NCBI RefSeq assembly: GCF_011758745.1
Contig: NZ_JAANOV010000001.1
Span: 5,456,001 to 5,520,000, forward strand
Direction: 5' to 3'
Source: Amycolatopsis granulosa
GTDB lineage: Bacteria > Actinomycetota > Actinomycetes > Mycobacteriales > Pseudonocardiaceae
Length of the DNA stretch: 64,000 nt
The position numbers and the translations under genes are program-made. Positions 41,560 to 44,171 of the stretch are shown piece after piece. How positions within the stretch are numbered: the stretch's first letter is position 1; each line of letters opens with the position of its first letter. Under the pieces are notes generated by a model. It worked only from the letters and a program-made list of their open reading frames with translations, searched no databases and had not been told where the DNA came from.

Positions 41560-42003
41560 CTAGGCGGTCACGACGTTGCCGCCGTCGACCTTGACGGCGA
41601 TCGGGGGCAGGGCCCGCTGCGCGGGGCCCTTCTCGACCGCGCCGGTGAGGGCGTCGTACGTCGACCCGTGACACGGGCAGTGCAGCTTCGCGCCCTCGGG
41701 CGCGACCGTGCAACCCTGGTGGGTGCAGATCGCGCTGAAGCACACCGCGGTGGTGCCGGAGGGGCGCGACACGATCGCCGGTTGGCCGTCGACCTCGACC
41801 GACTTGGCGCCGCCGACGGGGACGTCGGCGAGCGCGGCGATGGTGGTACCGGGCGGGGCGGCGGGGGCCGGGCCGGTGTTCTGGCTGCTTCCGGAGCTGC
41901 CGCCGCTGCCGCAGGCGGCGAGGGCCACGGAGCCGGCGGCCGCACCGGCCACGGCGACCCCGGTCGTCAGGACGGCACGGCGGGTAGGTGAATGCGCAGT
42001 CAT
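41560..42003 (-). CDS. Rieske [2Fe-2S] Tat lipoprotein
   Basis: A 147-residue exported iron-sulfur protein. The N-terminus SPTRRAVLTTGVAVAGAAAGSVALAACGSGG is a Tat-type signal (Arg8-Arg9) with a lipobox ending at Cys31, so it should fold in the cytoplasm and be anchored outside. After a Ser/Gly/Pro linker, the Rieske motifs are CTHQGC (ligands Cys93, His95) and CPCHGS (ligands Cys109, His112), with Cys98-Cys111 as the disulfide. It is not a cytochrome bc QcrA (no membrane helix trio). The ATG at 42003 sits seven bases past a predicted ECF -10 element, implying a leaderless mRNA. Confidence 0.9.
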   Translation of the reverse strand: MTAHSPTRRAVLTTGVAVAGAAAGSVALAACGSGGSSGSSQNTGPAPAAPPGTTIAALADVPVGGAKSVEVDGQPAIVSRPSGTTAVCFSAICTHQGCTVAPEGAKLHCPCHGSTYDALTGAVEKGPAQRALPPIAVKVDGGNVVTA

Positions 42004-42010
42004 GTCCGGT

Positions 42011-42038
42011 GAAACGGCCGCCGGCCCCGCCCGGTTCA
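42011..42038 (-). promoter_or_regulatory. ECF-type promoter for the Rieske gene
   Basis: On the minus strand TGAACC (42038-42033), a 16-base spacer and CGTTTC (42016-42011). The same layout occurs on the plus strand at 42053. TGAACC-N16-18-CGT resembles the SigL-type consensus of mycobacteria. Transcription would start at or next to the ATG at 42003. Confidence 0.62.
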
Positions 42039-42052
42039 CTTCCGCGACGGAT

Positions 42053-42080
42053 TGAACCCGATCGCGCGCCACGCCGTGGT
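42053..42080 (+). promoter_or_regulatory. ECF-type promoter for the membrane protein/sigma/anti-sigma operon
   Basis: TGAACC (42053-42058), a 16-base spacer and CGTGGT (42075-42080), followed by a GGAGGAGGT ribosome-binding site and the ATG at 42119. It mirrors the minus-strand element 15 bases away and suggests autoregulation by the sigma factor encoded here. Confidence 0.65.
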
Positions 42081-42118: not shown

Positions 42119-42508
42119 ATGGTGGCGTGGCTGCTGCGGATCCTGGTGGTCCTCGGGCTGCTCGGATCGGCGTGGGTGCACTGGACCCTGTGGTCGGGCG
42201 AGGGGTTCCGCGACATCCCCACGATCGGCCCGTTGTTCCTGGTCAACGTCGCCGCCGGGGTGATCGTCGCGGTCGCTGTGCTGTTCTGGCACCACTGGCT
42301 GCCGGTGCTCGCGGCGATCGGGTTCGGCGCCGCCACGCTGGGCGCGTACCTGATCTCGCTGACCCCGGGAGGCCTGTTCGGGGTGCGGGAGCAGTTCGTG
42401 ACGGCCGCGGAGAAGTGGGGCGTGATCACCGAGTCCGCGTGCATCGTGTTCGGGGTGCTGCTGCTGGTCGCGCAGCGGGTCCGGCGGAAGCAGAGCGTGC
42501 TCGTGTGA
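42119..42508 (+). CDS. Four-helix membrane protein of the sigma-factor operon
   Basis: A 129-residue integral membrane protein with about four helices (LLRILVVLGLLGSAWVHWTLW; LFLVNVAAGVIVAVAVLFW; LAAIGFGAATLGAYLISL; ACIVFGVLLLVAQRV). His and Trp residues cluster near the ends of helices 1 and 2 (HWTLW, FWHHW), which might hold a redox cofactor; this is speculative. First gene of an operon with an ECF sigma factor, joined to it by a GTGA overlap. Family not recognised. Confidence 0.78.
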   Translation: MVAWLLRILVVLGLLGSAWVHWTLWSGEGFRDIPTIGPLFLVNVAAGVIVAVAVLFWHHWLPVLAAIGFGAATLGAYLISLTPGGLFGVREQFVTAAEKWGVITESACIVFGVLLLVAQRVRRKQSVLV

Positions 42509-43017
42509 CCGGGGGCGCCGAGGACCAGCTGATGCGGGCGCTGCACGCCGACCACGCGGCCGCGCTCTGGTCCTATGCGCTGCGGCTCACCGGGGGCGAC
42601 CGCGCCCGGGCCGAGGACGTCGTGCAGGAGACGCTGCTGCGGGCCTGGAAGCACCCGCGGGTGCTGGACCAGACGCAGGGGTCGGCGCGGGCGTGGCTGT
42701 TCACGGTGGCGCGCCGGATCGCCATCGACGACTGGCGGTCGGCGGCGCACCGGTCGGAGGTGACCACGGACTCGCCGCCGGAACGCGCCGCGCCGGACGA
42801 CACGGACCGGGCGTTGCAGGGGTGGCTGGTCGCCGAGGCGCTGCGGGAGCTGTCCGTGGCCCACCGCGAGGTGCTGTTGCTGTGTTACTTCCAGGGCTTC
42901 TCGGTCGCCGACGCGGCCGAGCGGCTCGGGATTTCGCCCGGGACGGTCAAGTCCCGGACGCACTACGGACTGCGGGCGTTGAAGCTCGCGCTGGAGGAGA
43001 AGGGGGTGACCCGGTGA
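42505..43017 (+). CDS. ECF RNA polymerase sigma factor (SigL-like)
   Basis: A 170-residue ECF sigma factor. Region 2 is LWSYALRLTGGDRARAEDVVQETLLRAWKHP with RAWLFTVARRIAIDDWRSAA; region 4 is LRELSVAHREVLLLCYFQGFSVADAAERLGISPGTVKSRTHYGLRALKLAL. It lacks regions 1, 3 and any C-terminal extension. The partner anti-sigma gene follows with a GTGA overlap. The zinc-type anti-sigma and the TGAACC-N16-CGT promoters resemble the SigL/RslA module of mycobacteria. Confidence 0.92.
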   Translation: MTGGAEDQLMRALHADHAAALWSYALRLTGGDRARAEDVVQETLLRAWKHPRVLDQTQGSARAWLFTVARRIAIDDWRSAAHRSEVTTDSPPERAAPDDTDRALQGWLVAEALRELSVAHREVLLLCYFQGFSVADAAERLGISPGTVKSRTHYGLRALKLALEEKGVTR

Positions 43018-44171
43018 CCGAACCCGACGAGTTCGTGACCTATGACGCGGCCTACGTGCTGGGCGCCCTCGCACCGGAGGACCGCTCGGCGTTCGAGGAA
43101 CACCTGCGCACCTGCGACCGGTGCTCCCGGGCGGTGGCCGAGCTGGCCGGTCTGCCCGGGCTGTTGTCCCAGGTGACCGCCGACATGCTGGGGCCGGCAC
43201 CGGATGCGCCGACGGGGTCTTCGGCTGCGGGGTCTGCGGGGGCGGTCCGGGCGGTCACGGGGGAGCCCGGGGTGAAGCCGTCGCGGGACGGTCTGCCGTC
43301 CCAGGCTGTGGAGCCGCCGCACGAGTGGCCGGTGGCGTCGCTGCCGGACGGGGTGCTGCCGGGACCCGGGATGCGCCCCACCGGGACGCCGGGGACTGTG
43401 CCGGGTGAGCCGCCATCGGCCGGGTCGCCGCCACGGGAAATGGCGTCGGGCAACGCCGTGCCGGGGGTGTGGCAGCCCGGGGTGAGCCCCGATGAGCCGT
43501 CATCGGATCGGGCGTGGCGGCCCGGGATGCCGGATGAGCCGTCGTCGGGCAGGTCGTCGGGTGGGTCGTCGCAGCAGGTGACGGTGCCGGGCGAGCGCTC
43601 GCCGGGCGGAGATTCGCGGTCCGCGACCGCGCCGGGTGAGCGGTCATCGCCAGGGGCGGGGCGGCCGGGGATGGTGCCGGGCGATCCACTGCCGTTCGTG
43701 CCGCCGGCGGTCGCGCCGGGCGGGGCGTCACCGGAGGAGATGCTGCCGGCGTTGCTGCGCACGGTGCACCGCGCCCGGCGGCGCCGGCTGGCGACGACCA
43801 TCGCGGCAGCGGTGGCGGCCGCGGCGGCGGTGCTGGCCGCCATCTTCGTGTCCCTGTCCGGCGGGGACGGTGGCGGGACCGCCATGACCCCGCTGGGCGC
43901 CTATCCGGTCCAGGCGACCGCCGCGGTGGCCTCGGTGTCCGGCGGCAGCCGGGTCGACATGTCGTGCACCTACCGGGGCGCCCGTCAAGGGGCGGGATAC
44001 CAGCTGGTGGCCCTCCGCGTGGACGGCTCGGAGACCGAGCTGGCCACGTGGACCGCCACCCCCGACCGCGACGCCCGCATCTCGGTGGGCACCGACGTGC
44101 CGCGCGAACAGATCACGGCACTGGAAGTTCGCACCACGAGCGGCGTACCGCTGCTGCGCTGGCACCCCTGA
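43014..44171 (+). CDS. Zinc-type membrane anti-sigma factor with expanded linker (RslA-like)
   Basis: A 385-residue anti-sigma factor that holds the ECF sigma factor inactive. The N-terminal ZAS domain has DAAYVLGALAPEDRSAFEEHLRTCDRCSRAVAEL (HxxxCxxC), a thiol/zinc switch in related proteins. Residues ~65-245 are a Pro/Gly/Ser-rich linker with recurring PGE/VPG units; a membrane helix follows (LATTIAAAVAAAAAVLAAIFVSL), then a ~100-residue extracytoplasmic RskA-like domain ending LLRWHP. Relatives are usually around 230-260 residues, so the linker is strikingly long. GTG start overlaps the sigma stop. Confidence 0.88.
   Translation: MTEPDEFVTYDAAYVLGALAPEDRSAFEEHLRTCDRCSRAVAELAGLPGLLSQVTADMLGPAPDAPTGSSAAGSAGAVRAVTGEPGVKPSRDGLPSQAVEPPHEWPVASLPDGVLPGPGMRPTGTPGTVPGEPPSAGSPPREMASGNAVPGVWQPGVSPDEPSSDRAWRPGMPDEPSSGRSSGGSSQQVTVPGERSPGGDSRSATAPGERSSPGAGRPGMVPGDPLPFVPPAVAPGGASPEEMLPALLRTVHRARRRRLATTIAAAVAAAAAVLAAIFVSLSGGDGGGTAMTPLGAYPVQATAAVASVSGGSRVDMSCTYRGARQGAGYQLVALRVDGSETELATWTATPDRDARISVGTDVPREQITALEVRTTSGVPLLRWHP

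Follow-up and report, generated by a model that had tools for sequence, protein, structure and literature searches.

Divergent promoters between a Rieske gene and a SigL operon

In the window, which is the whole 64,000-nucleotide stretch of Amycolatopsis granulosa DNA analysed in this study, a gene for an exported iron-sulphur protein and an operon for a sigma factor and its anti-sigma factor diverge from one short intergenic region. Does a single sigma factor control both transcription units and, if so, what would an electron carrier do under its control?

The intergenic region carries two predicted SigL-type promoters arranged back to back. The promoter for the Rieske gene (42011..42038, minus strand) reads TGAACC (42038-42033)-N16-CGTTTC (42016-42011), and its −10 element ends 7 nt ahead of the Rieske ATG. 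The promoter for the operon (42053..42080, plus strand) reads TGAACC (42053-42058)-N16-CGTGGT (42075-42080), with the −10 element ending 38 nt ahead of the ATG of the membrane-protein gene. The gap between the two −35 boxes is 14 bp. A sequence-only reading of this DNA had reported two such sites at 42011-42080, and both the letters and the coordinates proved exact. The flanking genes are likewise those it described, namely a Rieske protein with a twin-arginine motif and a lipobox on one side and, on the other, a membrane protein, an ECF sigma factor, and an anti-sigma factor containing HLRTCDRC. Within the operon, the sigma start overlaps the membrane-protein stop, and the anti-sigma start overlaps the sigma stop.

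The ECF sigma factor (42505..43017, plus strand, 170 aa) scores 243.2 bits against PRK09645.1 (cut-off 202), the NCBIfam model for SigL, and in keeping with this its best solved relative is SigL of M. tuberculosis (6dv9, 3e-52). These results bear out its proposed identity as a SigL-type factor and ortholog. The specificity of this type is TGAACC-N16-18-CGT, and a TGAACC-N16-CGT sequence precedes the operon in which the window sigma factor is encoded.

The anti-sigma factor (43014..44171, plus strand, 385 aa) is homologous to the zinc anti-sigma (ZAS) factor RslA (3HUG, 3hug_B, 1.6e-12) and comprises an HxxxCxxC domain, a Pro/Gly/Ser-rich linker, a membrane segment recognized by eye, and an outer domain with a conserved cysteine. 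The linker, of about 170 aa (43190-43740), separates the zinc domain from the membrane segment and contains an imperfect 42-bp repeat (43465-43548). It is absent from nine aligned anti-sigma relatives, which are 209-218 aa in total.

The Rieske [2Fe-2S] protein (41560..42003, minus strand, 147 aa) is a predicted Tat-type lipoprotein, with a twin-arginine (RR) motif, a LAAC lipobox, and the sequence CTHQGC...CPCHGSTYD. It matches the Rieske domain PF00355 with 58 bits (cut-off 20.3), as one of seven such matches in the genome, and its closest solved relatives are b6f/bc1 subunits. Both the CxHxxC and the CxCH box, with the cluster ligands and the disulfide cysteines, are present (CTHQGC and CPCHGS). 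Its assignment as QcrA was rejected, the score against NF050121 being 47.5 bits compared with a cut-off of 275, and a separate QcrA-like gene (L418) was recognized by eye in the same genome. Among 71 sigma-linked Rieske proteins, both boxes are complete in 63, and all 71 carry a twin arginine and a lipobox by a loose pattern applied to open frames untrimmed to their starts. The remaining eight sister proteins (L032-L036 and L113-L115, some species appearing twice) are without the two disulfide cysteines, reading CPHQGA or CPHQGG...CPLHGS, but still have all four cluster ligands; in the window protein the disulfide cysteines are retained. The residue after the box II serine is phenylalanine in 62 of the 63 two-box proteins and tyrosine in one, and the window protein has tyrosine.

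The small membrane protein (42119..42508, plus strand, 129 aa) appears by eye to have four helices, and no Pfam or NCBIfam family was found above cut-off. Its classification as BacA or LiaF-TM was rejected because the scores fall below cut-off, as was a relationship to DUF2231 (probability 0.4%). Its nearest named relatives are in Amycolatopsis, with identity of up to 85%, and His21, Phe40, and Gly85 are unchanged in 29 of 29 aligned homologs. At three remote loci (L084, L086, and L087) of the 18 membrane-protein loci viewed, a cupredoxin-like gene and a metallophosphoesterase-like gene were recognized by eye next to the homolog, with a Rieske sequence present as well at L084 and L086; a cupredoxin-like neighbour was not seen by eye at the remainder of the 18. 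Three other homologs (L068-L070) have their own TGAACC-N16-CGTGTG promoter, and an adjoining Rieske or sigma gene was not found for them.

Conservation of the promoter pair

The pair might be a by-product of synteny combined with chance matches to the motif. In its loose form the motif is indeed common, with three matches in the window compared with 1.41 in shuffles, 20 of 100 of which reach three, and with 246 matches in the 5.62-Mb genome compared with 46 for the reversed pattern. Loose-motif counts, in the window or the genome, were accordingly rejected as support for the claim. The tight form TGAACC-N16-CGTKK has 15 matches in the genome and two when reversed. The sequence-only reading had called for a genome-wide search for TGAACC-N16-CGT upstream of genes. 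In a set of 43 instances of tight sites from this genome, with some sites represented twice and genes called by a codon-usage script, the two sites of the pair are the only intergenic ones with a called start no more than 100 nt downstream. Two further tight sites (L098 and L172) are located within a called gene, yet 20 and 31 nt ahead of a start.

Comparison of the locus in relatives, also proposed in that reading, was carried out with two sets of loci. A family search across 150 genomes gave 69 places, located in 62 of them; 67 places were taken, two fragments of one genome being left out. Dropping L094 and L096, which are without a usable membrane-protein match, gave 65 loci including the window. 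A locus was considered sigma-bearing when a SigL-like gene is present downstream on the same strand, and L083 and L165, in which a SigL-like gene is nearby on the opposite strand, were counted as being without sigma. The second, named set of 53 loci shares species with the first and was therefore counted separately.

The Rieske and operon promoters are conserved together. Both are present in all 27 family-search loci with a downstream sigma gene and a divergent Rieske gene, and in none of the 14 loci that pair Rieske and membrane-protein genes without sigma, one of which (L048) has the minus site alone. In the named set, both occur in 42 of 44 loci with sigma and Rieske genes (L131 and L161 carry one) and in none of three Rieske loci without sigma (L147 carries the minus site). 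Of the two named loci with sigma but no Rieske, one has the plus site (L154) and the other neither site (L160), and lone plus sites are found at five loci without Rieske or counted sigma (L068-L070, L074, and L165). Over the two sets together, 69 of 71 loci with sigma and Rieske genes have a match on both strands. By comparison, none of 14600 mononucleotide shuffles carries both sites and 57 carry at least one. The constancy of GAACC, N16, and CGT in the matched sites is by construction, these parts being fixed in the search pattern. On a tree of the Rieske proteins the sigma state changes about three times, and the contrast between loci with and without sigma rests on these changes. The promoter pair follows sigma in a mean of 1.9 of two independent pairs, too few for significance in a sign test. 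Pairs of Rieske and membrane-protein genes persist at loci without sigma.

The position of the Rieske start is also fixed. The ATG is located exactly 7 nt past the −10 element in 68 of 69 loci, or 52 of 53 when counted by distinct region, and 6 nt past it in the other locus; 11 loci have an earlier in-frame start, and taking those starts gives 57 of 69 at 7 nt. This spacing leads us to predict that the Rieske mRNA is leaderless. A requirement of ECF sigma factors for consensus elements and a rigid spacer is described, for SigH, in PMC6411747. The −10 element of the window Rieske promoter, CGTTTC, counts against the assignment to the extent that its T is found at the same position in just 4 of 70 minus sites. 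The distance between the divergent −35 boxes is 14 bp in 35 of 69 loci and ranges from 1 to 28 overall, and this variation indicates two promoters and not one symmetrical element. The term mirror-image, used in the earlier reading, is thus a loose one.

Conservation already contradicts an origin by synteny and chance, since the sites recur across families and in differing gene orders, the ATG spacing is fixed at 7 nt, and the shuffles never yield both sites. We regard such an origin as very improbable, and the coupling of the SigL module to the Rieske gene can be considered well supported.

Partner genes at other SigL loci

SigL was found above the cut-offs used in 65 of 121 genomes of the order and 64 of 197 genomes of the class. 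We took 90 SigL loci (L302-L391), a subset of the matches, and removal of the duplicates L338-L340 left 87; L295-L301 are family loci already in the earlier set. The survey of the 87 loci was run on open frames, the gene caller having missed the sigma gene in 12 of them. A divergent site was defined as [TC]GAACC-N16/17-CGT within 900 nt, and partner genes were sought up to 1.7 kb upstream. On the plus strand, a site starting with T or C and having an N16 or N17 spacer was found within 900 nt at 68 of the 87 loci.

Divergent partners comprise Rieske genes at 16 loci, cupredoxin genes at four, DUF2231 genes without Rieske at three, and PF03640 genes at two, and the divergent site accompanies 16/16, 4/4, 2/3, and 1/2 of them, respectively. 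Rieske therefore recurs as the divergent partner of SigL in other families too, always with the site, and in two of these loci (L309 and L320) the Rieske gene lies directly against sigL and the membrane protein is absent. The site is found at all 16 loci with a divergent Rieske gene compared with 11 of the 71 others (Fisher p 1e-10, uncorrected for descent), and the strict TGAACC-N16 form at 14 of 16 compared with 10 of 71. Pooling the four partner classes gives 23 of 25 compared with 4 of 62 (p 7e-15, uncorrected for descent and with three of the classes post hoc). Rieske was the class named beforehand, and cupredoxin, DUF2231, and PF03640 were added after the site-bearing loci had been viewed. 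Our own profiles for cupredoxin and DUF2231 were built partly from loci chosen for having a divergent site, and the share of cupredoxin, DUF2231, and PF03640 in the partner slot is only suggestive.

Pfam confirms Rieske at L320, L325, L329, and L384, DUF2231 at L335 and L368, and cupredoxin at L305, L306, and L308, with L386 below cut-off (E 0.0023); PF03640 at L350 and L334 was assigned by a sequence pattern and a small profile of our own. The four other loci with a divergent site are L346, L347, L371, and L387. At L346 and L347 the gene opposite the site encodes a protein that looks exported and has a DxNxDGxID-like tail (no Pfam match was found for that of L346), and at L371 and L387 a candidate gene facing the site was not found. 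At three of the 62 loci outside the pooled classes (L383, L390, and L391), a codirectional Rieske or cupredoxin gene lies upstream.

Since the pairing is preserved in relatives, the SigL switch probably activates an electron-transfer device on the cell surface. A different possibility is that the shared promoters serve stoichiometry only, with the Rieske protein sensing redox state and signalling to the anti-sigma factor, for example through the conserved cysteine in the outer domain of the latter. The tight linkage of Rieske and SigL genes would suit a sensor, as would the outer-domain cysteine motif, which is kept in 68 of 70 anti-sigma factors. However, none of the four partner classes was found within 1.7 kb upstream, divergent or in the same direction, in 59 of the 87 SigL loci, and by eye several anti-sigma factors from Rieske-less loci share the outer cysteine. 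The Rieske disulfide cysteines, moreover, have been lost in eight sister loci whose module is intact. We found no evidence for the sensor role that the earlier reading had put forward as possible, and we consider it improbable.

The anti-sigma factor and the inducing signal

The earlier reading had taken the module to be redox-responsive. In RslA, zinc is bound by His25, His50, Cys54, and Cys57, and oxidation in vitro frees the zinc and lowers affinity 8-fold, according to PMC2877774. The HxxxCxxC motif is present in all 73 anti-sigma factors identified in a profile search that did not select for it. For residue scoring, the 70 that fit the pattern were kept. The column corresponding to RslA His25, placed from the alignment with RslA by taking the aligned histidine to be His25, contains histidine in none of them (P 53, E 12, A 2, R 2, S 1). 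Eight of the 70 have a histidine three residues beyond this column. With the His25 equivalent absent, redox release is not simply transferable from RslA.

An alternative that we rate as plausible, somewhat short of probable, is that the sigma factor controls both promoters while metal or protein-folding stress is what the module responds to, by way of anti-sigma proteolysis, the zinc domain being only structural and the Rieske protein one of several envelope outputs. The absence of the His25 ligand and the conserved outer-domain cysteine motif fit this alternative, as does the argument, in PMC7406223, that the zinc motifs of membrane-bound anti-sigma factors can be structural. In addition, SigL and the Rip1 protease of M. 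tuberculosis function jointly when iron is low, Rip1 being a site-2 protease for RslA (PMC10449499), which makes a metal or proteolysis route possible. Against it stand the retention of HxxxCxxC in all 73 anti-sigma factors, the redox sensitivity of RslA in vitro (PMC2877774), and the mostly redox-type nature of the genes facing divergent sites, 20 of 27 being Rieske or cupredoxin genes.

Other candidate targets

The Rieske gene had also been called the main dedicated output of the sigma factor. This description fits the genome of the window, where the sites of the pair alone, among the tight ones, are both intergenic and close to a called start, and fits sister genomes less well, where the motif also precedes genes for PF03640 lipoproteins (L194, L213, L223, and L243). 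Outputs of this kind would accord with the metal and proteolysis alternative. PF03640 has no matches in the genome of the window and was matched in 12 of 15 chosen genomes; no relevant description was found under its family names in open-licence literature. Some PF03640 genes adjoin a second ECF sigma/anti-sigma pair, at L275 (which holds the L243 gene), L289, L290, L293, and L294, and promoters are near-identical at these paralogous ECF pairs. It may be the paralogous sigma factors next door that use the PF03640 promoters, and we have left these unassigned to SigL. Given the near-identical promoters, another sigma factor could act at the Rieske-operon promoters too.

This second locus is a recurring one, in which genes for PF03640 secreted-repeat lipoproteins, with TGAACC-N16-CGT promoters, flank the ECF pair and a gene for a long protein that looks exported. 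In one sister genome a transposase-like gene interrupts the PF03640 gene (L278, 980-1873), and at L277 the locus appears degraded.

Two further genes are weak candidate targets, both identified by eye. A TGAACC-N17-CGTGT sequence is located 31-37 nt ahead of a CDP-alcohol phosphatidyltransferase-like gene in four of four genomes searched (L172, L185, L197, and L206), in three of which it falls within a divergent called gene, and an N17 site is located 143-203 nt from the called start of an MFS-like gene (L192 and L182).

Proposed mechanism

We consider it likely that at this locus an ECF sigma/anti-sigma switch of the SigL/RslA type drives an exported electron carrier. At rest, by analogy with RslA, the membrane-anchored anti-sigma factor would hold the sigma factor. 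An envelope or thiol signal, presumably oxidative or metal-related envelope stress, would free it through the HxxxCxxC domain, regulated proteolysis of the anti-sigma factor, or both. SigL-RNA polymerase would then fire the two promoters, whose presence and spacing are supported by conservation, so that the sigma factor amplifies its own operon, including the membrane protein, and induces a leaderless mRNA for the Rieske lipoprotein. Once exported by Tat and anchored by lipid, the Rieske protein might carry single electrons on the outside of the membrane, partnered there by the small membrane protein, and would supply or withdraw electrons during envelope stress. We infer this last step from the linkage of the Rieske and membrane-protein genes, and from the occurrence, in other families, of cupredoxins and further exported or membrane proteins in place of Rieske opposite the corresponding promoter. 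The repeated pairing of SigL with Rieske is supported by sequence and, less firmly, so is its pairing with other redox-type genes.

More tentatively, actinobacterial SigL modules might constitute a general regulon for exported electron carriers, in which one divergent slot is occupied by unrelated carriers or partners: a Rieske lipoprotein, a cupredoxin lipoprotein, a DUF2231 membrane protein, or a PF03640 lipoprotein. Such a regulon would provide an inducible electron-transfer branch on the outside of the membrane, the small membrane protein with His21 would be its entry point, and mycobacterial SigL would be a stripped-down descendant.

Relation to known systems

SigL has been studied chiefly in mycobacteria, where its described targets are polyketide, cell-wall, secreted, and membrane proteins without a simple theme. 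The comparative context presented here offers it a candidate primary output in the form of small exported electron carriers. In open-licence literature, we found no description of a coupling of SigL to Rieske or of an exchange of carriers at one promoter slot. The locus also provides a testable leaderless two-promoter system in harmless actinomycetes and places two families of uncharacterised proteins, PF03640 and that of the small membrane protein, in a physiological setting.

QcrA and the Rieske subunits of cytochrome b6f/bc1 complexes have the Rieske domain, the cluster ligands, and the disulfide cysteines in common with the window protein. Unlike these subunits, it is a stand-alone Tat-type lipoprotein divergent from an operon that contains no bc-complex gene. 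In the Streptomyces SigR-RsrA system, an HxxxCxxC anti-sigma factor likewise governs an ECF sigma factor and a redox response. RsrA is soluble and SigR belongs to another sigma group, whereas the window anti-sigma factor has, by eye, a membrane segment and an outer domain.

The closest comparison is with SigL-RslA of Mycobacterium (Rv0735-Rv0736), whose setting is the adk-map neighbourhood. At adk-map SigL loci (L340, which is the same place as L364, and L367), in contrast to the window, a Rieske partner and a plus-strand N16/N17 site were not found, and the 70 scored anti-sigma factors differ from RslA in the absent equivalent of the His25 zinc ligand. The regulatory core itself is known from SigL-RslA, which has in common with the window locus an orthologous sigma factor, a homologous HxxxCxxC anti-sigma factor, and the joining of the two in one operon.
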